The notes below the pieces were generated by a model, which was not told the origin of the DNA, did not search any database, and was given only the letters and a program-made list of their open reading frames with translations. A program made the position numbers and the translations under genes. From Fibrobacter succinogenes (lineage in GTDB: Bacteria > Fibrobacterota > Fibrobacteria > Fibrobacterales > Fibrobacteraceae), in assembly GCA_902762305.1 (NCBI GenBank), contig CACWNW010000008.1, positions 124,001 through 188,000 of the forward strand: a stretch of 64,000 nt of DNA, given 5' to 3'. The stretch's first letter is position 1. Each line of letters starts with the position of its first letter. This document shows positions 30,533 through 63,107 of this stretch, piece by piece.

Positions 30533-30557
30533 ATGATATTAAAAATAGGAGCAAATA

Positions 30558-30983: not shown

Positions 30984-31034
30984 TACGTAAAATGCTCAAC
31001 AACTGCTGAATTTTGAATATAACGAATTTGAATG

Positions 31035-31060: not shown

Positions 31061-31066
31061 TTATTT

Positions 31067-43334: not shown

Positions 43335-43393
43335 TGACATTCTCCAGAATAAAATATATTTTCCTGTTGTTATCTGTAGGAGGAGGCGCATCC

Positions 43394-46300: not shown

Positions 46301-46849
46301 ACGGTCCTCGTTATGGGGGATACGACATTTGTCGCTCACTTCGAGATCGTCCCGGCAAGTTCGAGTTCCGGCGTCACATCGTCTAGCTCCAGTGCGAAGT
46401 CCTCCTCCAGCGTCACACCAAAATCTAGCAGCAGTGCGAGGTCTTCTTCTAGCGTCACACCAAAATCTAGCAGTAGCGTGAAGTCTAGTTCTAGCGTCAC
46501 ACCGAAGTCGAGCAGTAGCGCGAAGTCCAGTAGCTCTGCGAAGTCCTCTTCGAGCAAGGCGCCCAAGTCGTCCAGCTCGTGCAAGAACTGCTTTAACGTG
46601 GGCCTGCCTGTCGCTTCTGTCGCTCCGCAGTTCAATGTGGAAGTTGCCGGACGCAACATCTGGGTGACGGGTGCGGCCGATGCTGTGCGCGGTTCCCGAG
46701 ACGGCGGCACCTATGTGCTGCTCGACATGCAGGGCCGCGTGCTCCGTAGGGGTGCGGTCGATGGCGCGAACTTCGCCATCCCGGTTGCGCGTGCGGGCGA
46801 GTACCTGGTGCGTATCGGCGACCGTGTGCGGCGCGTATCCGTGAAATAA
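43394..46849 (+). CDS. Giant secreted GLUG-repeat protein 1 with Ser-rich linker and sorting-type C-terminus
   Basis: The ATG at 43394 follows AGGAGG (7-base gap) and encodes a signal peptide (MKKLLLVVVSVLAVYANAA). The 1151-residue protein has two GLUG-type modules (about 25-330 and 530-800): each opens with a DGCYxISxAxELYxFA..T-type segment and D-IVVNxN, then GTFDGQxHTISGLYF and several VGGLVG-type motifs. Two InlB-type repeat segments (GYVFAGWYTSSD, HMQFVGWYGTSD) each follow a module. A Ser-rich linker (about 988-1063) leads into a 75-residue C-terminal domain (NIWVTGAADA ... DMQGRVLRRG) of type IX sorting type. Likely a beta-solenoid surface adhesin. Confidence 0.75.
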   Translation: MKKLLLVVVSVLAVYANAAREIVMQVPKLVDGCYLISNAAELYKVAFSFMDPKTDCVKLTADIVVNENVIKDGTLNVADTANFAVWQRSAFFDFGGVFDGQGHTISGLYFNDSSMDRVGLFGKVGVFRSGGIIENIVIKDVHLVDTYFKAGSNVGGLVGEAEDGINLVIERSSVDGIIEGDDHAGGLIGYLDDSRFVSIYDSYNAASVTATYYTGGIAGCMLWGGHLRIANAYNVGTVSGQRKIGGIIAYVDEDADGLELINVFNVGQVVASEENSSDINSFGYIDVYSLDSYVLDNVFFLGSNKEGVGTSVTEELFANGTVASIMHGYNYDGVDGSIWGQGVGVDPLPNFSGVVSGAVTLPSITLSLDTGSAELWTMELPIGYRHRIPDVKRENYELFGWYDNAALTGEKVTHVPETQTTDVKFWGHYEPVYKVVLETSGGTVPVDSMGSYIRSVGAKLPNGALREGYVFAGWYTSSDYSGSPVDSIAATDEGDKTFYAKWIEMRAPKKNADGCYAISDAGELYGFAAIVNAEETLGPNKAACAVLTQDIVVNRNVLDSAGKLNEKDALAFVPWNPIDSFMGTFDGQMHTISGLYFMNSLNTQERESVGFIASMGYLEEEPATVKNVGIVGSYFKSGARYVSAVVGNVFAYTETAIWGITIPLYAEVRNTYSTSTVYSTNENGYAAGLVGGLSSYSYLLVENSYNVGGVDAKYGAAGLVGYADDKRVRVVNSYNVGNVYGEMRNRLVLNTCYGCEYDGSSIINSYYLYIKSYGKSNGEIGGYAVDEEEFADGRVALALHNGENGAVWGQNVGVDPYPVFSGTVENSTATWYNVTFHTFEGDTATYFDYYVAGFYINLPVASSPIEHMQFVGWYGTSDFSGSVQTYISSNATGDKEFYAKYEPKSYTVRVEANDPYCGYVAGFPNDAEEAEYPFGSSVTIKAVALDCFFDECYEFRYWEDAPSITNPIRTVLVMGDTTFVAHFEIVPASSSSGVTSSSSSAKSSSSVTPKSSSSARSSSSVTPKSSSSVKSSSSVTPKSSSSAKSSSSAKSSSSKAPKSSSSCKNCFNVGLPVASVAPQFNVEVAGRNIWVTGAADAVRGSRDGGTYVLLDMQGRVLRRGAVDGANFAIPVARAGEYLVRIGDRVRRVSVK
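46357..46580 (+). repeat. Ser-rich linker coding repeats, including 42-base tandem units
   Basis: Three 42-base units begin AGCGTCACACC at 46409, 46451 and 46493 and encode SVTPKSSSS-[AV]-[RK]-SSS. Shorter SSSSAK units surround them. Serine codons mix TCN and AGY, so the DNA is less repetitive than the protein except in these units. Confidence 0.8.
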
Positions 46850-46868: not shown

Positions 46869-46902
46869 CTCCCCGGTAAATTTGCCGGGGATTCTTTTTT
46901 TT
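46869..46902 (+). terminator. Rho-independent terminator of GLUG gene 1
   Basis: CCCCGGTA/TGCCGGGG (one T-G pair, loop AATT) is followed by ATTC and eight T. Confidence 0.85.
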
Positions 46903-47084: not shown

Positions 47085-47936
47085 ATGAAGTCGGTTATCG
47101 AATACAGGGATTACCGCGAGTACGTGCTCGAGTATTACCGCGAACGCAAGCGTTGTTCGGCGTTTACGTGGCGTGAGTTTGCACGGCTGGCCGGTTTTGC
47201 CTCGGGATCGTACTTGAAGCTTGTTTGCGACGGCAAGACGCGTCTCTTGGAAGAAGGAGCAAGGAAGACTGCGCTTGCGATGGGGTTGCTTGACTTCGAG
47301 TACGATTACTTCATTCTGATGGTGCGTTACGAGAACGCGAAGACGGAGGAGCATAAAAAGAAATGCTTCGAAGAGATGCAGGCGATTGCCGAGGCGAGCC
47401 ACGTGAAAGTTCTGGGGAGCGAACTTTACGCCTATTACGAGACGTGGAAGCATTCCGTGGTGCGTGAGCTTGCAGTTGCTATGCCCGGCGCGAAGCCGCT
47501 CGAGATGGCGAAGGCCTGCCGGTACCCGATTTCTGCTGCCGACGTGAGCGAAAGCCTGCGTTTCCTTGTGCGCGAGGGCTTCTTGGTGCTTGAACCCGAT
47601 GGCGGGTATAGGCAGACGAGCCGTTCGCTTTCTACGGGGCGCCTGAAGGTCGTCTCGGTGGCGGTTCATTCCATGCTGCGGCAGATGGGCGAGTTCGCGC
47701 TCGAGGCCTTCGATTCGCTCCCGATTTCGGAGCGGCATTTTAGCGGGATTACGATGGGCGTGACTGCCGAAAGCTACGAGAAGGTCCTGGACGAACTGGC
47801 GCGATGCCGCCAGCGTATCGTGTCGATTGTCGCATCAGAAAAGCATCCGGACAAGATTTGTCGCTTGAACATGCAGGTGTTCCCGTTGACAGAAAATTTA
47901 AATAGGGGTCCGGCCGAGCCGGAAAAAGGAGTGTAA
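47085..47936 (+). CDS. TIGR02147-family protein (paralogue 2)
   Basis: 283 residues, with the family opening VIEYRDYREYVLEYYRERKR and the helix-turn-helix-like REFARLAGFASGSYLKLVCDG (about 27-47). The middle HSVVRELAVAMPGAKPLEMA and the C-terminal NMQVFPLTENLN match the paralogues at 11936 and 60488. It is probably a DNA-binding regulator. The C-terminal codons contain AAAAGGAGTG, the Shine-Dalgarno of the lipoprotein gene beginning 3 bases after its stop. It follows the GLUG gene 1 terminator. Confidence 0.86.
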   Translation: MKSVIEYRDYREYVLEYYRERKRCSAFTWREFARLAGFASGSYLKLVCDGKTRLLEEGARKTALAMGLLDFEYDYFILMVRYENAKTEEHKKKCFEEMQAIAEASHVKVLGSELYAYYETWKHSVVRELAVAMPGAKPLEMAKACRYPISAADVSESLRFLVREGFLVLEPDGGYRQTSRSLSTGRLKVVSVAVHSMLRQMGEFALEAFDSLPISERHFSGITMGVTAESYEKVLDELARCRQRIVSIVASEKHPDKICRLNMQVFPLTENLNRGPAEPEKGV

Positions 47937-47939
47937 GGT

Positions 47940-49373
47940 ATGTCTATGCAAGGGATACCGGTGACAAAGTGGATTCGAGTTTTGCCTGCTGTCGTGCTTG
48001 GCGCGATGTTCTGGGCGTGTGCCGACAAGAATACCGCGGGTACGAGCGAAGAGAGCGAAGGCCTCTACGCCGTCAAGGACCTGGAAGTTGCGGGTGTCAC
48101 GCAGAAGGGGCCCTTCGTGAAGGGTTCCTCCGTGACGGTGCGGGGAATCGATTGCCAGACGATGAAGCTCTCGGACGAAATTTTCGAAGGCACGGTCAAG
48201 AGCGACAAGGGCGACTTTGCCATCGGTGGCGTGACGCTCAAGTCGTCGTGCGCGGTGCTCGAGGTGACGGGCCGGTACTTGAACGAACTTTCCGGCAAGG
48301 AATCGTCTGAGGAGTTTACGCTCCATGTGCTGACGGATTTGAAGAAGCACAAGACGGTCAACGTCAACATCCTTACGCATCTGGAATACAATCGCGTGAA
48401 GTCGCTTGTGACCGGGAAGAATTTGTCTTTGGCAGAAGCGAAGGTGCAAGCGGAGCGCGAAGTGCTTGCCGCGTTTGACATTGCTTCGACCGCTACGGAA
48501 TTCGAGGACATGAACATCCTGGAATCGGGCAGCGACAATGCGGCTCTCCTTGCCGTGAGCGTGCTGATGCAGGCGGATGCCGATGCGGCAGAAGTCGCTG
48601 AACGCACATACAAGGCCGCGGCTTCCATCGCGAGGAACGGCCTGTGGGATGATTCCGAAACGAAGAAGGAAATAGCAGAGTGGGCGCTCGGTGCCGAGGC
48701 TAGTGGCGAACTCGAGGCAATCCGCAAGAATGTCGAAAGCTGGAGCGATGCAGGTGTGGCTCCCGCTTTCGAAAATATCGTGGAGGATTTTGGCGAGGCG
48801 GCCGGCAGGAATCCTTATCTGAATCCTGAGGTGGAATACGATTCCCTTGTAGACATGCGCGATGGACAAATCTACGGCGCCGTGAAAATCGGAGGCCTGG
48901 TTTGGATGGCCGAGAACTTGAACTACTACGACACCGTGGCTGTGCCGAGCCTCAGGGACAGCAGCTGGTGCTACGACAAGAACCTTGCAAAATGTGCGGA
49001 GATGGGCCGGCTTTATGCGTGGGCGGTTGCCGGTTCGGTCTGCCCCGATGGCTGGCATTTGCCCGATACGACGGAGTGGAACGCGCTGTTTGATGCGGTG
49101 GGTGGCGATGCCTCTGCGCTCAAGTCGCAGGGCGGCTGGGACGACGGAAGTGGCATGAACGGTTCGGGATTCTCTGTTGTCGCCGGCGGGGAACGCTACC
49201 GCAGCGGCTCGTTTGATTCCGAGGGCCTCAAGGCCTATATATGGAGTTCCGTGGAAATTCCGGACGTAGAAGATGAATCTGCCTACGCGGTGTTTTTCGG
49301 GAGCGACGGCCAGGTGTCTTTCAAGAACTCGTCCAAGAATAACGGGCATTCGGTACGTTGCGTCAAGGACTAG
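47940..49373 (+). CDS. FISUMP lipoprotein with QKGPF domain
   Basis: Lipobox FWAC (Cys27) makes this a 477-residue lipoprotein. Residues 45-300 hold a domain shared with the lipoproteins at 61335 and 63119: VAGVTQKGPFVKGSSVTV, TVKSDKGDFAIGGVTLKSS, and NVNILTHLEYNRVKSLVTGK, then a helical part with AEREVLAAFDI. The C-terminal 170 residues (from DMRDGQIYGAVKIG) are a FISUMP domain (TIGR02145) with VWMAENLNY, GRLYAWAVAG, CPDGWHLPDTTEWNAL and the closing SVRCVKD. FISUMP resembles C-type-lectin/sulfatase-modifying folds; its role is not known. It is paired with TIGR02147 paralogue 2 and followed by GLUG gene 2. Confidence 0.85.
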   Translation: MSMQGIPVTKWIRVLPAVVLGAMFWACADKNTAGTSEESEGLYAVKDLEVAGVTQKGPFVKGSSVTVRGIDCQTMKLSDEIFEGTVKSDKGDFAIGGVTLKSSCAVLEVTGRYLNELSGKESSEEFTLHVLTDLKKHKTVNVNILTHLEYNRVKSLVTGKNLSLAEAKVQAEREVLAAFDIASTATEFEDMNILESGSDNAALLAVSVLMQADADAAEVAERTYKAAASIARNGLWDDSETKKEIAEWALGAEASGELEAIRKNVESWSDAGVAPAFENIVEDFGEAAGRNPYLNPEVEYDSLVDMRDGQIYGAVKIGGLVWMAENLNYYDTVAVPSLRDSSWCYDKNLAKCAEMGRLYAWAVAGSVCPDGWHLPDTTEWNALFDAVGGDASALKSQGGWDDGSGMNGSGFSVVAGGERYRSGSFDSEGLKAYIWSSVEIPDVEDESAYAVFFGSDGQVSFKNSSKNNGHSVRCVKD

Positions 49374-49414: not shown

Positions 49415-52400
49415 ATGAAGAAGTTCATTTTTACAGCAATCCTGTCGCTGCTTGCGGCTTACTCGTTTGCGGCGAACGGTACCATGAAGGGTGAAGGTAC
49501 CATCGAAAGCCCGTTCCAGATCGAAGATTACGAAGACCTGAAGGCGATTGGCAAGGGCGCCTACCTGTATTCTTCGGCCTATGAGCTCATGGCCGATATC
49601 GACGCTTCGGCCTCGTATGGCGAATGGTGCAGCGACGGCGTGTGCAACGGGTTCATTCCCTTGGGACTCCAGAAGGATGCCGCGGGCGCTTCCGTTTTTA
49701 CGGGCTATTTTTGGGGGCACGGATTTACGATCAGGAATATGCGTATATGGACGCCCTGTGCGCACAACGTGGGTTTTTTCGCGAACCTGGGTGGATTGGT
49801 CTCACATTTGAACTTTGATTCCCTTGTGGTGTGGGGCGGCCTGGATGATATCTATGCACCCCATTCGAAATATGTCGGTGCCGTTGCGGGCGCGGCTACC
49901 GGGTATATCCTCGATGTGCACGTTACAAAAGGCGAAGTGCAGGGCCTGCAGTATGTGGGCGGCATCGTGGGCAACATGGAAAAGACGACGGCCAATTTGG
50001 ATAATGTCTCGTATGAGGGTGTTGTCCGTGGCGGATCCGCCGTAGGGGGGTTGGCCGGAGGATCCTATGGCACGATTGCCAAAAGCTCTGCGAATGTCAA
50101 GATATATGCGAAGGGAAACACAATTGGAGGTCTGGTTGGCTCAAATAAAGGAAATATTAAAAGAAGCGAAGCGACAGGTTCGATCCACCCCATCGGAAGT
50201 TCAATCTTCGATGTCGGCGGGCTTGTGGGGTATAACATAAGCGGTGGCCACATCTTCGCATCGAGGGCATCCGTGGATATTCTGCCTTTGACCACTGGGA
50301 TTCCCGGAACTGATTTGGGCGGCCTGGTTGGAGACAACTATGGTACAATCGAACAGTCGTATGCTACGGGAAACGTGATTGGCAAAAATGGTGTCGGCGG
50401 CCTGGTTGGTAGCATCTATGGTGGGACTATCCGTAATTGCTTTGCCACGGGAGCGGTGAAGGGAAATAGGTATGTGGGCGGACTCGTTGGCGATGTAGAG
50501 GGATCGGTAAGTACATCGTACTCGGTCGGGCCTGTCGAAATCCTGGATACGACGGAAGTCGTGGATGTGGGTGGCCTGGTCGGTTGGGGAGAAGCGGATA
50601 GTTCCTACTGGAACGTGGAATTCTCCGGATTGGATACAAGCAGCGGCGGGACGGGGCTTTCCGATGCCGCCATGAAAAAGTTCGAAAGCTTTTTCGGATG
50701 GGACACCGAAATCTGGACTATCGACGAGGGGGAATCGTACCCCTACCTGGCCGTGTTCGGCAAGAAGCCCGATGCTGTCGTCTATGCGATTCCCACGGCG
50801 GCATCAAAGTGGCAGGAGAATCCGGTTGTCGCCGCGAACGTCGATACCGGCCGTGAATTGTTCGGCAAATGGACTGGCGCGAACTACCTGAATGCGGCGC
50901 GCGATTCCATCTACTACGGCTACAAGATCGGCTACGTCAAGGAATCCGATACCGTCTGGAGCACTTCGAGCTACATGGCTGTCCCGAACCGGATCGAGAT
51001 TGCGACCCTCGAAGACCTGCAGAAGATCGGCAGGCATGTCGGATTCCCGCTGTTTGCAAATTACGAGTTGACGGCCGATATCGATGCGTCCGGTGCTGAT
51101 TTTGAACCCATCGGTGACGAGCGTGTCTTGTTTACGGGTGGCTTCGACGGCAAGAACCATACCATCAGTGGATTCAGGATTGATGGCCGCAGTAAGGATT
51201 ATTCCGGACTTTTCGGGAAGGCGGAAAAGGCTGTCTTCAGGAACATAGTCTTCAGGAACGCGAATGTCAGCGCGAAGAAAATGGTTGGCGTGCTTGCAGG
51301 CCGGATCGATAAGTCGATTGTGAGCAACGTTGTCTCATACAACGCGACGGTCAAGGGCCATAGCAATGTCGGTGGACTTATCGGTATAGCGTACACGAAC
51401 GTCATGGATCGCCTCGCGAGTACGGGCGCCGTCACGGGAGATACCTGTGTCGGAGGTCTTTTCGGGGCGTTCGCGTCGAAGTTGACAGATGCCTATTCCG
51501 TGAATGTCGTCAAGGGTCATTATTGGGTTGGGGGCGTTATGGGCGGTGCGAATTTGGATTTCCATAATGCCGATACCGTCCTCAATGTTTACTCCGCGAG
51601 CCTTGTGAAGGGCCCCCGCAAGCGTATCGAGGGAATTGCCGGATCCGTGGAGGATTCCTACTACGACGAGAAGTATGCGGACATATACTTCGACAGCACG
51701 CTTATGCCTTCCGAATGGCAGGTCGATCGGTACGAGTTGGGTGAAGCGCTCCCGACTGATTCCCTGCTGAAGCGGGCCACGTTCAAGGGGTTCGACTTTG
51801 AGTCCGTGTGGACTATTCAGGAAGGCGTGTCGTATCCTTATTTCAAGGAAATGGACCCCTCGCTTCCGGGAACATTGGTCGATGACGGAACGAGCTATGC
51901 CCTGGTGGGCGAAGGTACGGCGGAAAAACCGTTCCTGATTACCTGCTACGACGATCTCAAGAATGTCGGCAAGCATGAATTCGGCCTGGACGCCCATTAC
52001 GAATTGCAGGGATTTTATGCAAGCGAATCCGCGACGGACAACTGCGTCGACGGCGTGTGCGCCGGTTTTGAGCCTATCGGCGGAACCGAAGGTTTCAGCG
52101 GGACGTTTACCGGAAACAGGGCCGGCATTTTCAATCTGACCATCAACCGCCCCGACGAGGATTATGTCGGCCTGTTCACGAAACTCAATCCCGGTGCCAA
52201 GGTTTCGGGAATAGGGTTGGCCCAGAGCACCATTGTCGGCAGGAACTATGTGGGTAGCATTGCCGGACTGGACAAGGGTGCCGACCTTGAGCGCGTGGGT
52301 GCGGAAAAAGACCTGGTCGTTCGCGGCAACAACTATGTCGGCATGGTTGTCGGGGCGAAGGAAGGTGGCTCTGCGAAATACAACCATGTCAACGGTACGG

Positions 52401-54457
52401 TCGAAGGCAACGATTATGTCGGATCCTTTGCCGGAAGCTCCAAGAACGCTTCCTATACAGACAACCTTTCCTGGGCGAGTGTTCAGGGCAACGCCAATGT
52501 CGGCGGCTTTGTCGGTATCGATTCCGCTTCGGCGTACACGAACATCTACAGCGTAAGCCATGTGCTCGGTAACGCGAATGTCGGGAACCTGGCGGGGGCG
52601 AGCGAGAAGTCGACCTACAAGTCGGTCTACTACGATGGCGAAGTGTGGCAGTTCGACAACAGCAGTGTCGGAAAGTCGCTCACGACGGCCGAAATGCTGG
52701 ATTCGGCTTCTTACGAGGGCTGGGAATTCGGGACGGTGTGGCTGAAACATGCCGCAGATGCCTATCCCATCCTCGCATGGACAGACGGTGTCAAGTTGAT
52801 TTACCCTGTCAGGACACACGATGTGAAATTCCAGATGGAAGGTTCCGGCACCGAGGAAGACCCGTTCCTCGTCAAGACATACGACGATCTCAAGGCGATC
52901 GGCTACGGGAAATACAAGCTGTCGGCTGTTTATCGTCTTGCAAACGATATCGATGCGTCGGCCTCCTCGAATGAATTGTATTACGTGGATTCTGCCGAGA
53001 GCTATTCGCAGGTGAATTTCGCCAATGGTTTCCCGTCTATCGGGAAGTATCGCGAAAATTCCAAGGGCCTATTCGGAGGCTCCTATGAACACGGGACGGA
53101 TACGACCTTTACTGGCAAATTCCACGGGAACGGTCATGTGATATACGACCTATCCACGAGCACGCACCAAGCGTACCACAATTCGGGATTCTTCCTTGCT
53201 ATCGATTCTTTGGCAATCGTGGATAGCCTTGAAATAAGGTTTGTGGAGTTCTCCGGCGTTACAGCAGGCCTTGCCTATGTGAACAGGGGAACTGTAGATA
53301 ACGTAGCTGTCAAGTGCGATAATCTGGAGGCCGATGTGGGACTTGTCTACCGGAACGAGGGCACCATCCGGCAGAGTTCTTTCGAGGGTTTCTTCGGCGG
53401 TTACGGAATCTACGGGCGTTTCGGCCCTCGCGGGGGTGGCCTGGTCTATATCAACGAGGGAACCATATCGGAATGCTACGTCAATGCGGATGTCGAACGG
53501 GATATGCCGTATGTCATAGCCGGCTTTGCCGTGGAGAATCACGGAATAATCGAAAATTCGTTCTCGATGGGTGATGTACTCGGAATGAACGATTCCGCCT
53601 ATTCGGCTGTTTATCTGAATACGGGTGTCATCAGCAAGTCTTATTCTGTCGGAAAGGGCTATCGCGCCTTTGCATACGAGAACAAGGGTTCCATCGAAAA
53701 TTCGTACGCTCTCAAGACGAGGTATTTTGTGGAACAGTCCGACAACGGGAAGCTTGTCAACGGCACGAATTACCATACGTCCCAGGAGGCCTCCATGGGA
53801 GCTATGTACATGCGTAATGAATACAGCGATTTTGATTTCGATTCCGTGTGGTTCATCAAGGAAGGTTTCTCGACACCGATGCTGCGCGGCATGCCGAACA
53901 TGCCTGTGCCTATGAGCGTGACTCTGCGGTTCGAAGGGAACGAGTCGCTTGAAAAGAGGGTTTGCGATAAAATTATCGAAGATACCTTCGTGATGGATTC
54001 GTCGGCGACGAAATTGGTCAAGCTGAACGTCGCGACCATTGTCCGACTTGATTCCTTGGAAAAGGCTAAGAATCCCTCTGGAACGTTCGTCATCCTGTAT
54101 AACGTGGGAATGGTGCTCGGAAATGACACGCTCTGGAGCGATGAGACCCTTGCGGTACTGGAGCTCGAGAAATCTGTTGGCTTGCGTAAGGTTGCCACCC
54201 CGTCGGGAGCCCGCTTCGGTGCCGCCTTCCGAGGCTCGAATGTGGCGCTCCGTTTCGAGATTCCTGCCGCGGGTGCAGTGAAGTTTATGCTCATGGACAT
54301 GCAGGGCCGTGCCGTTTACGCGGCTGACCTTGGAAAGCGAGCGGCGGGCACCCATTCCGAAACGATTGCCGCCGAAGGAATCGCCCGTGGCCGCTACGTC
54401 GGCGTGTTGCAGGTGAACGGCAAGGTGACCGAAAAAATTTTGATGGCTAGAGACTAG
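49415..54457 (+). CDS. Giant secreted GLUG-repeat protein 2 (1680 aa)
   Basis: The start at 49415 encodes a signal peptide (MKKFIFTAILSLLAAYSFAA); a longer upstream frame does not fit. After NGTMKGEGTIESPFQIEDYE the protein runs through four modules, beginning about residues 22, 520, 835 and 1145, each with an SPF/DLK-IG opening, YELTADIDAS-type segment, a GxFDGKNHTI motif and then VGGLVG-type GLUG motifs (about fifteen in all). The last 80 residues (VALRFEIPAAGAVKFMLMDM ... GRYVGVLQVNGK) resemble a type IX sorting domain. It is a tandem paralogue of the next gene, and probably a beta-solenoid surface protein. Confidence 0.78.
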   Translation: MKKFIFTAILSLLAAYSFAANGTMKGEGTIESPFQIEDYEDLKAIGKGAYLYSSAYELMADIDASASYGEWCSDGVCNGFIPLGLQKDAAGASVFTGYFWGHGFTIRNMRIWTPCAHNVGFFANLGGLVSHLNFDSLVVWGGLDDIYAPHSKYVGAVAGAATGYILDVHVTKGEVQGLQYVGGIVGNMEKTTANLDNVSYEGVVRGGSAVGGLAGGSYGTIAKSSANVKIYAKGNTIGGLVGSNKGNIKRSEATGSIHPIGSSIFDVGGLVGYNISGGHIFASRASVDILPLTTGIPGTDLGGLVGDNYGTIEQSYATGNVIGKNGVGGLVGSIYGGTIRNCFATGAVKGNRYVGGLVGDVEGSVSTSYSVGPVEILDTTEVVDVGGLVGWGEADSSYWNVEFSGLDTSSGGTGLSDAAMKKFESFFGWDTEIWTIDEGESYPYLAVFGKKPDAVVYAIPTAASKWQENPVVAANVDTGRELFGKWTGANYLNAARDSIYYGYKIGYVKESDTVWSTSSYMAVPNRIEIATLEDLQKIGRHVGFPLFANYELTADIDASGADFEPIGDERVLFTGGFDGKNHTISGFRIDGRSKDYSGLFGKAEKAVFRNIVFRNANVSAKKMVGVLAGRIDKSIVSNVVSYNATVKGHSNVGGLIGIAYTNVMDRLASTGAVTGDTCVGGLFGAFASKLTDAYSVNVVKGHYWVGGVMGGANLDFHNADTVLNVYSASLVKGPRKRIEGIAGSVEDSYYDEKYADIYFDSTLMPSEWQVDRYELGEALPTDSLLKRATFKGFDFESVWTIQEGVSYPYFKEMDPSLPGTLVDDGTSYALVGEGTAEKPFLITCYDDLKNVGKHEFGLDAHYELQGFYASESATDNCVDGVCAGFEPIGGTEGFSGTFTGNRAGIFNLTINRPDEDYVGLFTKLNPGAKVSGIGLAQSTIVGRNYVGSIAGLDKGADLERVGAEKDLVVRGNNYVGMVVGAKEGGSAKYNHVNGTVEGNDYVGSFAGSSKNASYTDNLSWASVQGNANVGGFVGIDSASAYTNIYSVSHVLGNANVGNLAGASEKSTYKSVYYDGEVWQFDNSSVGKSLTTAEMLDSASYEGWEFGTVWLKHAADAYPILAWTDGVKLIYPVRTHDVKFQMEGSGTEEDPFLVKTYDDLKAIGYGKYKLSAVYRLANDIDASASSNELYYVDSAESYSQVNFANGFPSIGKYRENSKGLFGGSYEHGTDTTFTGKFHGNGHVIYDLSTSTHQAYHNSGFFLAIDSLAIVDSLEIRFVEFSGVTAGLAYVNRGTVDNVAVKCDNLEADVGLVYRNEGTIRQSSFEGFFGGYGIYGRFGPRGGGLVYINEGTISECYVNADVERDMPYVIAGFAVENHGIIENSFSMGDVLGMNDSAYSAVYLNTGVISKSYSVGKGYRAFAYENKGSIENSYALKTRYFVEQSDNGKLVNGTNYHTSQEASMGAMYMRNEYSDFDFDSVWFIKEGFSTPMLRGMPNMPVPMSVTLRFEGNESLEKRVCDKIIEDTFVMDSSATKLVKLNVATIVRLDSLEKAKNPSGTFVILYNVGMVLGNDTLWSDETLAVLELEKSVGLRKVATPSGARFGAAFRGSNVALRFEIPAAGAVKFMLMDMQGRAVYAADLGKRAAGTHSETIAAEGIARGRYVGVLQVNGKVTEKILMARD

Positions 54458-54468
54458 GAGAGAGAAAG

Positions 54469-57400
54469 ATGATGAAGTTGCGTTTTGTTTTCGCTGCCGT
54501 TCTGTCGCTGCTTGCGATCCATTCGTTCGCGGCGAACGGCACCATGAAGGGTGAGGGTTCTGCCGAAAAGCCTTTCCAGATCGAGGATTACGAAGACCTG
54601 AAGGCGATAGGCAAGGGCGCCTACCTGTATTCATCGAATTATGTGCTGACTGCCGATATCGACGCTTCGGCATCGGAGCATGAGATGTGCAGTGACGAGG
54701 GCGGTTGCAACGGCTTTATCCCTATCGGCAAGTACAAGGACGCCGCCGACAGTACTGCGTTCTGGGGTACCATCGACGGCCAGAACCATACGATCAGCAA
54801 CTTGAAAATCTGGATGCCTTGTAGAAGCGATGTCGGCTTTATCGTTTACTTGGTAGGAACAGTCCGCAATTTAAATTTTGACCGTCTGGTGGTGACGGGG
54901 GGGGTCAAGGAATCTCGGCATGTCGGTAGCGTAACGCCTAGGCTTATCGGCTCTATAGAAAACGTGCACGTCACGAATGGATTTGTGCAGGGGGAGGAAC
55001 GCGTGGGTGGCATCGTTGGGGGGGCATTAAAGGCCATTGGGTATGGCAATGTCAAGGGGAGTGTTTACAACGTATCGTTCCAAGGCGAGATCAAGGGTAA
55101 GACCTGCGTGGGAGGCATTGTCGGCGAATCGGGTATCTCGGTGAACGAAGCTGTTGCGAATGTGGATATCATTGCTACGAACGCATACATCGGCGGCATT
55201 GTCGGGTATAATTCTGGCTATGTAACGAATAGCCGTGCGAGTGGCACTATAACGCCTGCTTACGAGGAAGTGGATGATGTCGGCGGCATTGCTGGGTATT
55301 CTGGCCGATGGGCGACGATTTCACGGTGTGTTTCGGAAATGGATTTGCTGAACGTAACCCGTTCATCGATGATTTGCCACCTTGACGAAGGCGTGGGCGG
55401 AATTGTTGGAACCAATCATGGTTCTGTGAGTGAATCGTATGCCAAGGGTACTATAGAAGGTACGGAGGATGTGGGCGGAATTGCTGGGGTGAGTTATGGC
55501 AGTATTCAGAATACTTTTGCCTTAGGTAGCGTCAAGGGCGTAGAATCTGTCGGCGGCCTTGTCGGTGGAAATGCGTATCATGCCTACGATGATAGCCATG
55601 GGTCTATTCTCAACAGCTATGCCGCCAATGTGGTCAAGGGCGAATTGGATGTTGGCGGGCTTGTCGGCTTCAATAGCGAAATGGTAGAGAGTTCCTATTG
55701 GAATACTGAAATTTCGGGACTCGATACGAGTGCGGGCGGTACGGGACTTACTACTGCAAAGATGATGAAGTTCTCTTCGTTTGCTGGTTGGGATACTCTC
55801 GGTTATGACGGGTATTTTCCGGTCTATCTGGATACGTGCGATTACTATTCGCTTTTCCGATATTGCTTTCATGTTACCGGCAGCTATGTCAATATCTGGA
55901 AAATAGACGAAGGTAAATCTTTCCCGTATCTTGGAATAATTTCTACTGTACCGGCGTCCACGGTTCCGGTCGCAGTTCCCACATTTGCTTCGAAGTGGCA
56001 GGAACAGCCGAAGGTTGCTGCGATGGTAGATATCGGCGAGGAACTGTTCGGCAAATGGCTGGATTTAGCTCAGGTAAACGAAACGAAGGATTCAATTTAT
56101 TATTGGTACCGAATCGGCTATGCGGTTGGTTCCGATACGGTCTGGGGAACGTCTAGCTACATGGCCGTACCGAATAAAATTGAAATTTCGACTTATGCCC
56201 AGCTCAAGAAAATCGGTCGTGATGTTGCGTATCCGCTGATGGCCAATTATGAACTGACGGCGGATATCGATGCGTCTTCGTCGAAGTTCGAACCTATCGG
56301 TGACAGTATACGTGCATTTACGGGAATGTTTGACGGTAAGAACCATACCATCAGGAATCTGGAAATCGATGAACCCGATCGCGATTTTACGGGCTTGTTC
56401 GGATATGTCGAGGATGCCATAATCGAGAATTTGACGCTAGAAAATGCGAAAGTGACTGGCTCTTGGATGGTCGGTGCTTTGGCTGGTGAAATACGTACTT
56501 CTATTGTTCTCCATGTTGTTTCGTTGAACGGCGATGTCCAGGGTGAGGAGTCTGTCGGTGGCTTGATTGGCTCCTGTATTGCCGATAGCATTAGATTTGT
56601 CGGGACTACAGGGAAAGTCAAGGGAAGAGAAGAAGTTGGTGGCCTAATCGGTTATATGGATGGTCGCTTTAGGTTGTCCGATGCATTCTCGGTCAATGTT
56701 GTCAAGGGCTATGAGGATGTTGGTGGTGCTATTGGCTACAATTACGAATTTGGTTCACAAGAAGGAAGTAGATCTATTTTGCGCATCTATTCGGCAAGCA
56801 TGATCAAGGCTCCGGAAAATGAGAGAGAAGGGCTTTCCGGGCATGACTACTACATGCTGGACGAAGGGACATGCTTCTTTGATAGTACCGTTGCGCACGC
56901 GAGAAGGGGTGGACTTCCGACTGCGACAATGCTGAAAAAATCTACCTATGCGGGTTACGATTTTGATTCTGTGTGGGAAATCCAGGAAGGCGTTTCTTAC
57001 CCGTATTTCAAGGGCATGGCCCCGATATTGCCCGGCACGCTCATAGACGATGGTACGGTAAATGTGCTCGCCGGCGCCGGTACCGAAAGGAGTCCCTACA
57101 AGATTGGCAGCTATGATGAACTCAAGTACATTGGCAAGTACGAATACGGACTCGACAAGTACTACAAACTTGTCGGCAATATCAATGCCCAGTCTTCGTT
57201 CAAGGAAAACTGCAATGCTGATAGCAGCCTGTGCAAGGGATTCGAACCGATTGGCGAATTCAGCGGCGTGTTCATTGGGAACAATAAGGTGATTGCGGGC
57301 CTGAATATCAACCGACCCGACGAGGATTCGGTTGGCCTGTTCCGCGTATTGGCAAGTGGCGCCAAGGTGACTGGAATAGTGTTTGATACGGCCTCGTATT

Positions 57401-60285
57401 TTGGGGAAAATTATTCACTCAGTTATAGCCATGATAAGGGCTTCATTCGCGGCAAGAACTACGTCGGCGCTCTCGCCGGTGTCGATAAGGGCGGTGAGGT
57501 TGAAAGAATTTTCATGAAATATGATGTCTCCGGTGAAAATTATGTGGGCGGAATTGTCGGAAAGAAAACGGCGGGTTCCATTTCCTTGAGTGCATCGAGG
57601 TTCAAGGTGCTCGGCGAGGAATATGTGGGTGGTCTTGCGGGCTTACTGTATAAGGCCGATGTGACGGATTGCTATTCTATTGCGAATGTAGTGGGAACGA
57701 AGTATGTTGGCGGTTTGGCAGGTTATTCCGACAATGCAAATGTGAAAAATTCCTTTGCCGCAGGTAATATCGAAGGTGGGTCGAAATGGGGAGGCCTTGC
57801 TGGTGCCGACAATAAATCGATGTACGCTTCGGCCTATTATGATTCGTCTCTCTGGTGTGTCAATACGACTGCCGCAGGGGAACTTCGCAGTACACAGCAG
57901 ATGGTCAAAAAGGAAAACTACAAAGGATGGGATTTCGATACAACATGGAATATCGCCGCAGATACAACTTATCCCTATTTGGCATGGCTTACTAAAGCTT
58001 ACTACTTATCCAAAACAATGAAGGAAAAAATTTATCCGAATTTAAATGTGGATCAGACTATGCTGAAAATGGTGGGGTCCGGTACAGAGCAAGATCCGTT
58101 CCTGATTAAGACTTACGGTGACCTCAAATCCATTGGCTTCGGCAAATATAAGCTTTCGTCTGTATATCGCCTTGCTAATGATATCGACGCCTCTGTATCT
58201 AAGACTGATTCCCTTTTTAGCGGACGCGGGATAGGGTTTAAGCCTATTGGTAAAAAGGAAAATTTGGAAGAATATTGTAACTGTTATGGAGTTGTTCTTG
58301 GCGGTTATTCGAGTCAGGACTCTTCAAGATTGTTTACCGGAAAGATTTATGGCGGTGGCTACAGTATCGACGGCCTCTTTATGAGTTATTATGACAGTGA
58401 ACCGAAGGGCTTTATAGACACAATTGCAAAAACGGGTGTTGTTGATAGTCTGACTTTTAAGAATTATAATATAATCGCGAACGGTGGTTCCGAATATCTT
58501 GGGGCTCTAGCTTCTGTGAATATGGGCTTGGTAAGCCACATTGATATGGATGTTTCTCTGGGAAATTATTATAAAGGAGCCGGCCTTGTATATGACAATA
58601 AGGGACGTATTGAAAGTTGCTCGGTCAAGGGAACATTTGATGGAGGTGGTATTGCAGGTGTCTCTGTAATGAATGACGGAGATATTGTCAATACGAAAGT
58701 TGACGCAGAATGGATTGACTCTTCGTCGTTTGCCAGCGGAATTACGTTGGTCAACAGGGGCCTTATCGAAAATGTTTCCGCTAATGTATCGATATATGGC
58801 GGCTCTGGTCCGATAGCGGGAATTGCGACGCTGAATACGGGTAAAGGGCAAATTGTTGATGCGTCTGCAAATATTGATGCGAAGGTGGTTAGGCGAAATG
58901 GTGTCGTGTCTTATTCCGTTGAACACAAAATAATGGATTACGAATACGAGTACTATGATGTCGATGGAATAGGTGGCCTTGTCGCAATTGATAGCGGAAT
59001 CATCAGGAACTCTACGGCATCCGGTGTTATTGACGCTCCGCAATCGGCCTATGTTGGCGGTTTGGTTGGCAAGGCTTATGGCGGGGAGCTGAAAGGCCTG
59101 CATGCGTCTGTCGATATTACAGGAATGAGTGCTATTGGCGGATTGGTTGGCCTGAATCAAACAAGTATTTCTGAAAGCTATGCGACAGGAAATGTCAAGG
59201 GAGTTTCGGCATATGGATCTTCTGGGGCTTTTGTTGGGCAAAATGATGGTCGGATTGATCGTTCGTTTGCAATAGGAGATGTGGAAAGTGGTAGTGGTTT
59301 TGTCGGCATGAATAATGGTGTCATCAAACAATCCTATTCAACAGGAGATGTTGAGGGTCGTGGCAGCTTTGCTGGAATAAATCAGTCTGTAATTGAAGAT
59401 TGCTATTCGACAGGTGATGTGTATCTGAGAGATGATGCTTATGGTTTTGGTTTTGTTGTTGTTAATGGCAATGATGCTTTGGTTCGTGGATACGCTTCTG
59501 GTAATGTTAAAAATGGAATGCTCCTTTGTGGGGGCTTGCCGTCGATTTCGCAGCCTTCGGACGAGTTCTACTACCTTGCCGACAACTGCATCGATTCTTT
59601 GTCGAAGGGCGTGGGGCTTACGTCGAGTCAGATGACGCAGAAAAAATCCTTCTCCGCGTTCGATTTCGATTCCGTGTGGTACATGAAGGAGGGTGTGACC
59701 TACCCGCTGCTCCGCGGTATGCCGAACCCGCCGATGGTTGCGGATGAGAAGGCCGTGTACAAGGACAATGTTGGACTTACGAAGGATATCCACGTCAGGC
59801 TGCTCGAAGATGCCTTCGTGATGGATACGACGGCAACGAAGGTGCTCGCGCTGGATTACGCAAGCGAGGCCCTGCTCGATTCCCTCGAGAAAGCAAAGTC
59901 ACCGTTCGGGAAATTTGAGGTCTCCTACCGCGTGGGTATTTTGCTTGACTCCGACACGCTCTGGAGCAGGCCCGCCACGATGCGGCTTGAACTCGAGAAA
60001 ACCATCGGAATTCCCGAAATTGCTTCTGCGCATGGTCGCGGGTTCGGTGCCGCGTTCCGTGGCCCGCATGTGGCGCTTCGCTTCGAGATTCCTGCTGCGG
60101 GTGCTGTGAAATTCTCGCTTATGGATTTGCAGGGGCGCGTCGTTTATGCGATGGACCTCGGCAACCGTGCGGTGGGCGCCTACTTCGAGACTCTCGCTGC
60201 TGCCGGAATTTCCCGCGGCCGTTATGTCGGCGTGCTGCAGGTGGACGGCCGTGTCACCGACAAGGTCTTGATGCTCAGAAAATAG
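54469..60285 (+). CDS. Giant secreted GLUG-repeat protein 3 (1938 aa), paralogue of the previous gene
   Basis: AGGAG lies 8 bases before the ATG at 54469 (a second ATG is next to it). Signal peptide MMKLRFVFAAVLSLLAIHSFAA is followed by the same opening as gene 2 (NGTMKGEGSAEKPFQIEDYE). Four modules repeat, with about eighteen VGG-[LI]-VG motifs, and one longer GLUG block in the C-terminal third (about 1330-1680). The C-terminal 80 residues match gene 2 nearly position by position (VALRFEIPAAGAVKFSLMDL). The stretch 58200-59500 is AT-richer than the flanks, so this gene seems to be a mosaic. It follows gene 2 by 11 bases and ends in a terminator. Confidence 0.78.
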   Translation: MMKLRFVFAAVLSLLAIHSFAANGTMKGEGSAEKPFQIEDYEDLKAIGKGAYLYSSNYVLTADIDASASEHEMCSDEGGCNGFIPIGKYKDAADSTAFWGTIDGQNHTISNLKIWMPCRSDVGFIVYLVGTVRNLNFDRLVVTGGVKESRHVGSVTPRLIGSIENVHVTNGFVQGEERVGGIVGGALKAIGYGNVKGSVYNVSFQGEIKGKTCVGGIVGESGISVNEAVANVDIIATNAYIGGIVGYNSGYVTNSRASGTITPAYEEVDDVGGIAGYSGRWATISRCVSEMDLLNVTRSSMICHLDEGVGGIVGTNHGSVSESYAKGTIEGTEDVGGIAGVSYGSIQNTFALGSVKGVESVGGLVGGNAYHAYDDSHGSILNSYAANVVKGELDVGGLVGFNSEMVESSYWNTEISGLDTSAGGTGLTTAKMMKFSSFAGWDTLGYDGYFPVYLDTCDYYSLFRYCFHVTGSYVNIWKIDEGKSFPYLGIISTVPASTVPVAVPTFASKWQEQPKVAAMVDIGEELFGKWLDLAQVNETKDSIYYWYRIGYAVGSDTVWGTSSYMAVPNKIEISTYAQLKKIGRDVAYPLMANYELTADIDASSSKFEPIGDSIRAFTGMFDGKNHTIRNLEIDEPDRDFTGLFGYVEDAIIENLTLENAKVTGSWMVGALAGEIRTSIVLHVVSLNGDVQGEESVGGLIGSCIADSIRFVGTTGKVKGREEVGGLIGYMDGRFRLSDAFSVNVVKGYEDVGGAIGYNYEFGSQEGSRSILRIYSASMIKAPENEREGLSGHDYYMLDEGTCFFDSTVAHARRGGLPTATMLKKSTYAGYDFDSVWEIQEGVSYPYFKGMAPILPGTLIDDGTVNVLAGAGTERSPYKIGSYDELKYIGKYEYGLDKYYKLVGNINAQSSFKENCNADSSLCKGFEPIGEFSGVFIGNNKVIAGLNINRPDEDSVGLFRVLASGAKVTGIVFDTASYFGENYSLSYSHDKGFIRGKNYVGALAGVDKGGEVERIFMKYDVSGENYVGGIVGKKTAGSISLSASRFKVLGEEYVGGLAGLLYKADVTDCYSIANVVGTKYVGGLAGYSDNANVKNSFAAGNIEGGSKWGGLAGADNKSMYASAYYDSSLWCVNTTAAGELRSTQQMVKKENYKGWDFDTTWNIAADTTYPYLAWLTKAYYLSKTMKEKIYPNLNVDQTMLKMVGSGTEQDPFLIKTYGDLKSIGFGKYKLSSVYRLANDIDASVSKTDSLFSGRGIGFKPIGKKENLEEYCNCYGVVLGGYSSQDSSRLFTGKIYGGGYSIDGLFMSYYDSEPKGFIDTIAKTGVVDSLTFKNYNIIANGGSEYLGALASVNMGLVSHIDMDVSLGNYYKGAGLVYDNKGRIESCSVKGTFDGGGIAGVSVMNDGDIVNTKVDAEWIDSSSFASGITLVNRGLIENVSANVSIYGGSGPIAGIATLNTGKGQIVDASANIDAKVVRRNGVVSYSVEHKIMDYEYEYYDVDGIGGLVAIDSGIIRNSTASGVIDAPQSAYVGGLVGKAYGGELKGLHASVDITGMSAIGGLVGLNQTSISESYATGNVKGVSAYGSSGAFVGQNDGRIDRSFAIGDVESGSGFVGMNNGVIKQSYSTGDVEGRGSFAGINQSVIEDCYSTGDVYLRDDAYGFGFVVVNGNDALVRGYASGNVKNGMLLCGGLPSISQPSDEFYYLADNCIDSLSKGVGLTSSQMTQKKSFSAFDFDSVWYMKEGVTYPLLRGMPNPPMVADEKAVYKDNVGLTKDIHVRLLEDAFVMDTTATKVLALDYASEALLDSLEKAKSPFGKFEVSYRVGILLDSDTLWSRPATMRLELEKTIGIPEIASAHGRGFGAAFRGPHVALRFEIPAAGAVKFSLMDLQGRVVYAMDLGNRAVGAYFETLAAAGISRGRYVGVLQVDGRVTDKVLMLRK

Positions 60286-60314: not shown

Positions 60315-60338
60315 AGGCCCGCTTGCGTGGGCCTTTTT
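60315..60338 (+). terminator. Rho-independent terminator of GLUG genes 2-3
   Basis: AGGCCCGC/GTGGGCCT with the loop TTGC is followed by five T. Confidence 0.85.
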
Positions 60339-60378: not shown

Positions 60379-60482
60379 TGTGTTCCAATATTGCTAAAAT
60401 TGTAAAATTTACACAAAAATGGTAAAATCTGCTCAAAAACAGCATTTTTGTGTTCTAAAATTGTGAAAACAACCTATATTTG
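60379..60482 (+). promoter_or_regulatory. Putative operator and promoter of TIGR02147 gene 3
   Basis: TGTGTTCTAAAAT (60449-60461) is identical to the motif upstream of TIGR02147 gene 1; a second related copy starts TGTGTTCCAATAT at 60379. TATATTTG (60475-60482), matching TAnnTTTG, lies 5 bases before the ATG at 60488, so the mRNA would be almost leaderless. Confidence 0.5.
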
Positions 60483-60487
60483 TGTAC

Positions 60488-61348
60488 ATGAAGGAAATCA
60501 TTGAATATACAGATTACCGCAAGTTCATTCAGGATTACTACGATGAACGCAAGCGCAGCTCGGCATTCACGTGGCGCGATTTCGCGCGTGAGGCCGGGTT
60601 CTCGTCGGCAGTTTACCTGAAGTACGTTTGTGAGGGGAAGAAGAACCTGAGCGTAGGGGCCGCCGGTTCTGTCGCAAGCGCCATGGGCCTCGCCGGTTTC
60701 GAAAGCACATACTTTGTCCTGATGGTTTCGTATGCCCATGCAAAGGGGGATGAGGCGAAGCGGGCCGCGTTCGAGGAAAGGTGTGCGCTGGCGAGAGCCC
60801 ATAAGGTGCGCGTGCTCGGGAACGAGGAATTCGACTATTTCAAGTCGTGGAAGAATCCGGTTCTGCGCGAACTTGCCCCGCATATGCCGGGCGCAAAACC
60901 GCTCGAGATGGCGCACGCCTGCAAACAGAAGATTTCTGCTGCCGAAGTGAGCGAGACGCTCGACTTTCTGGTGCGTTCAAAACTCCTGAAGAAGGACAGG
61001 GAAGGGAACTACCGCCAGACGGATAAGTCCATTTCTATGGGCCCGGTGGATGCGGTTCCCGTGGCGGCCCGCGACATGCAGCGGCAAATGGGGGAGTTCG
61101 CGGTGAAGGCCCTGGACCTGCCGCTTTCTGAACGCGACATGTCGGGGCTTACCCTCGGGCTTACGCGCCGTGCGTACGAACGGATTCGGAAGGAACTGGC
61201 TGATTGCCGCCGCCGCATCGTGGCCATTGCCGCGGAAGACGACGAGACGGAACAGGTGTATCGCCTGAACTTGCAGCTGTTCCCGATGAGCGAGAAATTG
61301 AATACTGAAAATAAAATTGATAAGGAGGAAAAAAATGAAAAGGTTTAA
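60488..61348 (+). CDS. TIGR02147-family protein (paralogue 3)
   Basis: The 286-residue protein starts MKEIIEYTDYRKFIQDYYDE, aligning with MKSVIEYRDYREY of paralogue 2; an upstream GTG at 60482 is rejected for that reason. The helix-turn-helix-like DFAREAGFSSAVYLKYVCEG, NPVLRELAPHMPGAKPLEMA and LNLQLFPMSEKLN segments are all present. Its last codons contain AAGGAGG (61322-61328), the ribosome-binding site of the overlapping lipoprotein gene at 61335. Probably a DNA-binding regulator of its cassette. Confidence 0.86.
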   Translation: MKEIIEYTDYRKFIQDYYDERKRSSAFTWRDFAREAGFSSAVYLKYVCEGKKNLSVGAAGSVASAMGLAGFESTYFVLMVSYAHAKGDEAKRAAFEERCALARAHKVRVLGNEEFDYFKSWKNPVLRELAPHMPGAKPLEMAHACKQKISAAEVSETLDFLVRSKLLKKDREGNYRQTDKSISMGPVDAVPVAARDMQRQMGEFAVKALDLPLSERDMSGLTLGLTRRAYERIRKELADCRRRIVAIAAEDDETEQVYRLNLQLFPMSEKLNTENKIDKEEKNEKV

Positions 61349-63107
61349 GTACAAGTTTTTTGGGGAGTGTTTGGTTTTTTCGTTGGTGTTTGCCATCCTG
61401 TTGACTTTCTTTGCCGCCTGTTCCAAGGACGTAGCTGGCGGTTCATCGGAAGATGCTGGCTTCCTTGCGCTTATAAACAAGAAAATCTCGGGTGCCGTGC
61501 AGAAGGGACCCTTTGTAACGGGCTCCAGTGTGGTCCTCAGGGAAACGTCGGCAGCGGGGAACCTTGAACCTACGGGTAGGGAATTTGAGACAACGGTCGT
61601 CAATGACGAGGGTAAATTTAAGTTTGGAGATCTTGATCTGGAATGCCAGTATGTGCTGCTTTCTGCCGAGGGCTACTATACCCGCGAATCTGACGGTTCT
61701 CGTTCTGAATGCCCTGTGCGCCTTGATGCGGCTACTAATTTGAACAAACGCAATACGGCGAACATCAACCTCCTGACGCATTTTGAGTACAAGCGAGTTC
61801 TGAAATTGGTCGAGGAAGGTAAGACTTTCGCCGAAGCCAAGAAACAGGCTTCCCGGGAAGTTCTCGGTGCGTTCGGGGTCGAGATAGAAGTCTCTTCTGC
61901 GGAGGACCTGGATATATTCAATACATCGGAAGGCGACAGGATCCTTTACATCATCAGTCAATATGTTGATAACAGTATATGGGAGCCTTGGGACGGCGAA
62001 GGCGGCGATTCTGCCTTTTGGGCCTATCTTTATGGCGAAGATAGTGACAATCGCAATATAGACTGTTCTAGATTGCAGGCCTTTATTGACGGGTTCGCTG
62101 ACGATTATGCCGATGACGGTGTCCTCAGCGATACCATTATGCAATGGCTCGCGTCGGATGCCTATTTTGACATTCGGGAATACCGCCGCCTGGAAGGCTT
62201 CGATTATGAAACGTGGGAAAAGGATGAGTATTCGCTAGAGGCTTATGAGAAATTTAACGATAGGAAACAAAGATACGAATTCGGCAAGTCCCTGTTCTTG
62301 AACTATATGGGGCTCGAGATGTGCACAGAAGACCTTTTAGGGGAATATAGGGAATTCTACAAGCCGATCAAGGGTTTGGATACCACTGATTATTCGCGGG
62401 TGCTCAGGGATGGTTATTTCCTTTGCGACGGTTCTATTTGGAAATTGACGACGAAAGGATACTTGGATTCGCTCAAGATGAAAATTGACCATGAATCCGG
62501 AATGATGACGGATCCGCGAGATGGAAGGACTTACAAGACGGTCGGCTTTGAGTTCAATGGAATAAAGTATGAATGGATGGCGGAAGACCTCAAGTACAAA
62601 TCCTCTTCAGGGCTCTACAGTTGGACGACAGCCTTGCAAATTGACAAAAAATACATGAAGAAGGCTGTTGAAGAAGGTGTGGTTGGATCGAAACATCAAG
62701 GAATCTGCCCTGACGGTTGGCATGTGTCCAATGACTTGGAATGGAGAGCCTTGGTTGGTTATGTCGGGGATTATCATAACTTGTTCACTGGAAGATGGGA
62801 TGGCTTTGGTATGCTCTATAATCGATTTGACTTCAACCTTGAACTTCCTAAGGGCGAAAAGGAAATTATAGAATATCACACATATCCGGCTGTTTATGTT
62901 GCTCAAGATGTTTCCGAAGACATTGAATTTTGGATGAGTGTGTATGAAGATTCCCATGATGAAGAACTTTTGGAAATGGTTGAGAGCCTTCGTGAGAATG
63001 GGAGGCATGGTTATGCCAATGTCTTCTTTGCTGTCGCGTATAATTGGGGATCTTATATATCAAATGAACCGCAAAAATCGGGTCGTATCCGTTGCGTGAA
63101 GGATTAG
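61335..63107 (+). CDS. QKGPF-domain lipoprotein with a divergent FISUMP end
   Basis: Lipobox FAAC (Cys29) is preceded by a typical lipoprotein signal. AAGGAGG 6 bases before the ATG fixes the start; it overlaps the regulator gene by 14 bases. Residues about 50-220 carry SGAVQKGPFVTGSSVVL, NDEGKFKFGDLDL, and NINLLTHFEYKRVLKLVEEG, homologous to the lipoproteins at 47940 and 63119. A long middle part (about 200-380) is acidic and helical. The C-terminal 200 residues (from TDPRDGRTYKTVGFEF) are a FISUMP domain with YEWMAEDLKY and ICPDGWHVSNDLEWRAL and the closing RIRCVKD, but with a larger insertion than usual. Confidence 0.82.
   Translation: MKRFKYKFFGECLVFSLVFAILLTFFAACSKDVAGGSSEDAGFLALINKKISGAVQKGPFVTGSSVVLRETSAAGNLEPTGREFETTVVNDEGKFKFGDLDLECQYVLLSAEGYYTRESDGSRSECPVRLDAATNLNKRNTANINLLTHFEYKRVLKLVEEGKTFAEAKKQASREVLGAFGVEIEVSSAEDLDIFNTSEGDRILYIISQYVDNSIWEPWDGEGGDSAFWAYLYGEDSDNRNIDCSRLQAFIDGFADDYADDGVLSDTIMQWLASDAYFDIREYRRLEGFDYETWEKDEYSLEAYEKFNDRKQRYEFGKSLFLNYMGLEMCTEDLLGEYREFYKPIKGLDTTDYSRVLRDGYFLCDGSIWKLTTKGYLDSLKMKIDHESGMMTDPRDGRTYKTVGFEFNGIKYEWMAEDLKYKSSSGLYSWTTALQIDKKYMKKAVEEGVVGSKHQGICPDGWHVSNDLEWRALVGYVGDYHNLFTGRWDGFGMLYNRFDFNLELPKGEKEIIEYHTYPAVYVAQDVSEDIEFWMSVYEDSHDEELLEMVESLRENGRHGYANVFFAVAYNWGSYISNEPQKSGRIRCVKD

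Follow-up and report, generated by a model that had tools for sequence, protein, structure and literature searches.

Two giant genes stand in tandem in a Fibrobacter genome, their ends conserved and their interiors far apart, and they raise the question of how such a locus changes: by variation within one lineage, or by exchange of DNA with other genomes? The initial annotation read the pair as a duplicated surface-protein gene with an interior remodelled by recombination, in the manner of antigenic-variation loci. The stretch analysed here, referred to as the window, comprises 64,000 nucleotides (G000:C8:124001-188000) of an assembly of the genus Fibrobacter (3.6 Mb in 57 contigs, ~95% complete). 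We compared its two genes, A and B, across about twenty relatives and surveyed their orthologs among 36 congeneric genomes.

Architecture, predicted export and setting of the two genes

The open reading frames and the alignment bear out the pair as first described, with 1680 residues in A, 1938 residues in B, a spacing of 11 bases and four modules in each protein (Table 1); an in-frame TTG at 49385 provides an alternative start for gene A. A and B are collinear over their whole length, at 45% (BLASTP) to 50% amino acid identity (E = 0). This identity reaches 77-78% over the first 80 and 75% over the last 80 residues, and ranges from 29 to 68% per 80-residue window between the ends. At the DNA level, blastn aligns the first ~220 bp at 80.5%, the last ~470 bp at 69% and a few short interior stretches, the interiors being ~55% identical. 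The likeness of the A and B ends that had been reported initially holds, with the qualification that the same ends are conserved throughout the genus, where the first 80 residues are 56-83% identical. The modules (~434/799/1109/1479 in A, ~477/836/1160/1737 in B) carry caps (e.g. Y-D-L-K-x-I-G ... DIDA) and ends (e.g. W-x-I-x-E-G-x-S-Y-P-Y-L) that are found in both proteins, and module 4 of B exceeds that of A by ~190 residues.

Table 1. Features of the tandem GLUG locus and its borders (window positions)
Feature	Position	Strand	Basis or remark
Intrinsic-terminator-like hairpin with T run, upstream operon border	46870..46891	+	Pattern scan, predicted
TIGR02147 / DUF4423 protein, first gene of putative operon	47085..47936	+	TIGR02147 E 5e-80, PF14394
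FISUMP-domain protein (TIGR02145), putative envelope lipoprotein	47940..49373	+	TIGR02145 E 1e-48
Gene A, four-module GLUG protein, A type, 1680 aa	49415..54457	+	ORF, GLUG profile, alignment to B
A conserved 5' end: signal peptide and first cap, codons 1-77	49415..49645	+	
A module 1	49646..50710	+	Alignment to B
A module 2	50711..51898	+	Alignment to B
A module 3	51899..52792	+	Nearest is module 3 of G001 (100 in module tree)
A module 4, ~190 aa shorter than in B-type genes	52793..53770	+	
A module-4 end and C-terminal sorting-like domain	53771..54454	+	Tail profile match
Gene B, four-module GLUG protein, B type, 1938 aa	54469..60285	+	ORF, GLUG profile, alignment to A
B conserved 5' end, codons 1-80	54469..54708	+	
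B module 1	54709..55893	+	Alignment, module tree
B module 2	55894..57063	+	Alignment, module tree
B module 3, predicted parallel beta-helix	57064..58023	+	AlphaFold2, Foldseek
B module 4 body, AT-rich, groups with module 4 of G022	58024..59568	+	Module tree, GC3
B module-4 end and C-terminal sorting-like domain	59569..60282	+	GC3 jump at codon ~1700
Strong intrinsic-terminator-like hairpin, 3' border of putative operon	60315..60334	+	Pattern scan, predicted

At 57.9 bits (A) and 122.2 bits (B), both proteins exceed the curated cut-off of 20.5 bits for the GLUG motif (PF07581), and eight single repeats pass the cut-off across both genes. Module 3 of B was modelled as a parallel beta-helix (AlphaFold2 prediction, pTM 0.81). 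Among solved structures, Foldseek ranks highest for this model 3n6z, a putative Bacteroides ovatus IgA1 protease (E 1.8e-7), and 6xja, a streptococcal IgA1 protease (E 4.8e-4). A protease function was rejected because the M26/ZmpA similarity is restricted to the GLUG region: the scores for M26_N (20.5 and 27.2 of 27.7 bits) and ZmpA (33.9 of 3000) are sub-threshold and cover the GLUG stretch alone, and Pfam and NCBIfam scans detected no zinc-metalloprotease domain in A or B.

The C-terminal 70-85 residues are profile-related to type IX sorting domains that this genome encodes, with an hhalign probability of 97% (E 4.8e-11) when 15 tails were aligned to 18 of its TIGR04183 tails. Given that the tails of A and B lie under the curated Por_Secre_tail cut-offs (TIGR04183 / PF18962; A scores 13.4 of 27 bits) and are not among the 39 TIGR04183 tail matches of the genome, type IX secretion is read from this relative profile. 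The tail was modelled as beta strands (pLDDT 85-96), and weak Foldseek hits on the Ig-like domains DUF3244 and FlgD point to an Ig-like beta sandwich. SprA is present in the genome (G000:C19:23558-30133), and type IX secretion has been proposed for Fibrobacter envelope enzymes from proteomics (PMC6851124). Taken together, the tail profile and SprA make it likely that A and B are exported to the cell surface or outside.

A TIGR02147 gene, a FISUMP gene, A and B make up, in this order, a putative four-gene operon. The order TIGR02147, FISUMP, GLUG gene is seen repeatedly in many congeners, and the FISUMP gene lies directly 5' of the GLUG gene in G001, G014, G019, G006, G027, G018, L108, L112 and L116. 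The TIGR02147 / DUF4423 protein belongs to a Fibrobacter paralogous family and is a possible regulator. A TIGR02147 (DUF4423) gene stands directly 5' of a FISUMP gene twice in the window (47085-49373 and 60482-63107), with a 3-base gap or a 32-bp overlap between the partners, and such pairs also occur in L054, L056, L059, L108, L116 and L117; FISUMP copies are numerous in Fibrobacter, and the pairs look like regulator-effector pairs.

Two further features of the surroundings deserve mention. Between the operon and the gene for oxaloacetate decarboxylase beta, which is conserved at 92-99% amino acid identity, lies a 1172-residue protein with Listeria-Bacteroides repeats (PF09479, Flg_new; 43331-46849); it is only 26-42% identical between species and is thus another hypervariable large protein at the same place. 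An AT-rich multi-gene block at 25697-33985 (GC 0.34-0.41 and GC3 0.26-0.37, with surroundings at GC 0.55-0.60) lacks a counterpart in the syntenic DNA of RUG11683 and UBA7003 and is a possible genomic island.

Two allele types of one locus

A full-length ortholog occurs in about one-third of the 36 congeneric genomes, nearly always as a single gene, and in most congeners this gene is orthologous to B (56-63% amino acid identity). In the interior tree, A joins the only copy of G001 (RUG13674) with support of 100/100, the two forming a deep clade outside the B-type genes, and an A+B grouping is rejected (p-AU 8e-10). Since the interior tree links A to the sole copy of another species and rejects A+B, the two genes represent ancient allele types of a single locus, now in tandem; a recent duplication of A into B is rejected by the same tree, and the initial view of a duplicated gene with diverged interiors is not supported. 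The two types are found at the same place in sister species: G001 and G014, whose flanking DNA is mostly 86-95% identical (median 0.90, 200-bp windows), carry the A type and the B type, respectively, with nucleotide identity of at most 0.74 in the few gene windows that can be aligned.

The tandem is not restricted to the window, as Fibrobacter sp. UBA7003 (L112) possesses the same A-B arrangement with the same 11-bp gap. Its A gene (L112:5442-10514) is 91% identical to that of the window at the nucleotide level, with 97% falling to 70-87% at the module-4 end and tail (53771..54454), and its B gene is 70% identical, with 95% over codons 1-88 and 62% in the interior after that.

The ends of A and B have a history of their own. 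DNA trees of the first 80 codons (support 88/58) and of the last 110 codons (85/94) place A with B, which conflicts with the interior at moderate support. Fourfold sites of A and B are identical at 23 of 29 positions at the 5' end and at 35 of 105 in module 1, and dS is 0.64 at the 5' end compared with 2.0 in module 1. Because synonymous identity is high only at the 5' end, the 5' ends of the two genes have likely been homogenised; the corresponding signal at the 3' end is weaker, given that base composition accounts for part of it.

Module exchange between Fibrobacter genomes

Identity of the flanking DNA, rather than an rpoB species tree, served as the baseline for comparisons between genomes, since rpoB is missing from the window's own assembly and from several others. 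Many of the compared genomes are metagenome-assembled, and a few junctions lie near contig ends. Within pairs of genomes, tracts of 92-99% nucleotide identity alternate with tracts of 45-75%, with breakpoints near codons 40-95, 603, 837-876, 942, ~1300, ~1697 and ~1882; in this small count, most of them lie close to conserved caps or junctions.

The sharpest exchange involves G003, G005 and G014. G003 and G005 are 70-91% identical over codons 1-960, 42-68% over codons 960-1790 and 72-82% at the end. G003 and G014, in turn, are 94-99% identical over codons 920-1240 (module 3), except for one window at 86%, with flanks at ~73%, and none of 458 windows outside the gene reaches 94% in this pair; dS along the gene changes about tenfold, from 1.45 to 0.13 and back to 1.03. 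A test on the triple identifies G005 as the closest partner of G003 up to codon 872 and G014 beyond it, with a return to G005 near the end; none of 2000 permutations reached the observed value. The module trees conflict with strong support: modules 1 and 2 unite G003 with G005 (support 100), modules 3 and 4 unite G003 with G014 (100), and module 4 unites G005 with G019 (97).

Other pairs are mosaic in other places. G014 and RUG12208 are 100% identical over codons 1-50, 63% over codons 110-876 (modules 1-2) and 96% over codons 877-1883 (modules 3-4); G014 and G006 share their last 240 codons at 92% and the stretch just upstream at 47-60%; B of UBA7003 and the gene of RUG11683 are 92% identical over codons 74-603, followed by 68% and 48%. 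In some pairs regions outside the gene also reach 94%, and recombination is therefore not confined to the GLUG gene.

Comparison of strains revealed that the locus is not stable and collinear everywhere, most congeners holding one gene of either type. Interiors differ even where the flanks are 96-97% identical: G005 and RUG13981 agree at 96.5% and 96.3% in the two flanks and at 97% over the first 940 codons, and possess different module 3-4 interiors. The downstream junction of this pair lies inside one contig, and the RUG13981 gene is divided between two contigs. RUG831 and UBA4375, a very close pair, are 99% identical over the entire gene. Set side by side, these two comparisons indicate a locus that holds steady on very short timescales and undergoes block replacement on longer ones. 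The initial proposal that the interior recombines between conserved ends is thus supported by the identity tracts, the conflicting module trees, the triple tests and the near-conspecific interiors. Nearly all pairwise dN/dS values are between 0.08 and 0.41, which shows the pattern of purifying selection on the sequence of the locus; for point changes, there is no indication of positive selection.

The profiles of GC and GC3 confirm that the interior of B is AT-richer, as stated initially: GC is 0.40-0.47 over 58000-59700 compared with 0.55-0.59 at the 3' end, and GC3 is 0.30-0.44 for codons 1200-1700 before it jumps from 0.30 to 0.76 at codon ~1700; conserved neighbours, e.g. the oxaloacetate decarboxylase beta gene, have a GC3 of ~0.70-0.78. 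As proof of recent import, the AT-rich interior is only partial, since module 4 of several orthologs also has a lowered GC3, less strongly than in B. The GC3 jump of B coincides with a breakpoint in the pairs G014-G006 and L108-G006, and this coincidence is better evidence of import than AT-richness. Module 4 (58024-59568 in B) is also the most length-variable part of the family, its central GLUG stretch ranging from 178 aa in A to 598 aa in G005 (L056), with repeats expanding and contracting in addition to module exchange.

Several observations stand apart from these comparisons. L116 had appeared conspecific from a 96% match over 4 kb; a wider comparison gave flanks of 82-92%, and we treat it as no more than a close relative. 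RUG13981 (L118, L119, L126) has a further GLUG gene of ~1300 aa at the edge of a third contig (L126), ~44% identical to the gene of G006; this further gene may belong to a second tandem or to an additional locus. Contigs L121 and L129 (5.7-7.4 kb), labelled Bacteroidales, carry GLUG genes 41-47% identical to Fibrobacter ones and represent either misbinned Fibrobacter contigs or real transfer.

A mosaic locus and its known parallels

Conserved ends around a variable interior, with a tandem partner as a potential donor, are features that an expressed gene recombining with silent partial copies within its lineage would also have, as in pilE/pilS- or vlsE-type antigenic variation. For the present locus, this idea, raised by the initial annotation, is very improbable. 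A search with gene A for silent partial copies in the DNA of the window's own 3.6-Mb genome (~95% complete) returned A and B alone, the interiors of the two genes are too diverged for recent exchange, and the only other GLUG proteins of the genome are distant (28-34% amino acid identity). A repeat scan found no slippage-type phase-variation repeats of note at the locus, both frames are open, the RUG831-UBA4375 pair is stable, and exchange takes place between genomes. The mosaics themselves are highly unlikely to be artefacts of assembly or binning, with chimeric contigs joined at the conserved caps. While several genomes are metagenome-assembled and the RUG13981 gene is broken at a contig edge, the assemblies of G003, G005 and G014 are 99-100% complete, have 10-20 contigs and hold the gene far from the ends of contigs measuring 0.45-1.09 Mb, and mosaics recur across many independent assemblies, all with open reading frames.

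An ordinary fast-evolving repeat protein, changing by mutation and repeat expansion or contraction only, would fit the variable centre of module 4 and repeats that are diverged copies; as an account of the locus it has hardly any probability, given that near-identical blocks lie next to highly diverged ones within one pair and that the tenfold change of dS along the same pair excludes mutation rate alone. It is refuted for several pairs by dS and triple tests, and may hold for the length changes inside module 4. More weight is due to differential loss from an ancient A-B tandem in the Fibrobacter ancestor, most lineages having kept B, G001 having kept A, and the window's genome and UBA7003 both, with the ends held constant by functional constraint on signal peptide and sorting domain, and now and then by gene conversion. 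This is a genuine possibility, albeit short of probable. It agrees with the deep position of A and G001 outside the B-type genes, the identical gap of the tandem in two species, the ends conserved over the whole genus and the low A-B dS at the 5' end relative to the interior, as from gene conversion. However, it leaves unexplained the interior tracts of 94-99% nucleotide identity between species with flanks of 65-85%, as well as the replaced interiors between genomes with flanks of 96-97%. Differential loss can hold for the origin of the pair, yet recombination is needed on top.

We consider it probable that A and B are exported multi-module GLUG proteins at a locus that evolves by module replacement with DNA of other Fibrobacter. 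Each protein, with its signal-peptide-like N-terminus, four GLUG beta-helix modules and type IX sorting-like C-terminal domain, would most likely be delivered to the cell surface or outside. Homologous recombination with DNA taken up from other Fibrobacter would drive change at the locus, using the conserved N-terminal cap, the module junctions and the C-terminal domain as crossover points and replacing one or more whole modules between them. The genome encodes a ComEC/Rec2 homolog that scores over its cut-off in a profile search, with DprA-like proteins below theirs, and this homolog would permit natural transformation. By analogy with other GLUG proteins, and from the module architecture, the beta-helix modules may bind ligands in adhesion or recognition; the exposed modules would most likely contact gut targets, i.e. 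plant fibre, other cells, or host or protozoan surfaces, and shifting ligands, or evasion of phages and grazers, could maintain their diversity.

A broader and rather doubtful extension is that the GLUG locus forms a genus-wide pool, in which cohabiting Fibrobacter reassort modules 1-2, module 3, module 4 and the C-terminal end through the caps, and some keep both types in tandem. If this were true, one outward-facing protein would provide a combinatorial recognition layer that evolves by horizontal exchange rather than mutation, for example to recognise kin or partners, or to evade phages and grazing protists. Among the microbes of the rumen and hindgut, Fibrobacter are key degraders of fibre. 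The data presented here provide direct evidence, at one locus, for the movement of modules between species, and the natural chimeras are ready-made for testing the recognition target of each module. They also make such genes unsuitable as species markers, and illustrate that adjacent collinear giant paralogs can be long-separated allele types instead of recent duplicates.

In the literature we found no account of the GLUG motif in Fibrobacter and, among the matches listed, no paper about recombining surface genes of Fibrobacter. A report on the archaeon Methanimicrococcus blatticola describes large exported GLUG proteins, for which an adhesion role is proposed, beside Flg_new proteins (PMC9723798). 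This organism is likewise a digestive-tract microbe, and a Flg_new protein (43331-46849) adjoins the Fibrobacter operon too; the domain contexts of the archaeal proteins differ, and module exchange is not described in the parts consulted (PMC9723798). Known GLUG proteins (PF07581; the beta-helix of M26 IgA1 proteases; BACOVA_03286, PDB 3n6z) resemble A and B in the motif and in the predicted fold of module 3, whereas A and B, in contrast to the M26 proteases, lack a protease domain and have four self-capped modules and a sorting-like tail. With type IX cargo (TIGR04183 / PF18962) they share the tail profile, the Ig-like beta sandwich and SprA in the genome, although their tails, individually below the family cut-offs, represent a diverged subfamily.

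Mosaic surface-protein genes are established in naturally recombining bacteria, as in the pneumococcal PspA/PspC and neisserial transferrin-binding protein genes. There, too, interior blocks are recombined between conserved ends, also across species, and we regard the Fibrobacter GLUG locus as a mosaic surface-protein locus of this kind. In contrast to these systems, Fibrobacter is a commensal of gut and rumen, with no adaptive-immune explanation at hand; whole beta-helix modules are exchanged, and two allele types of the locus stand in tandem.
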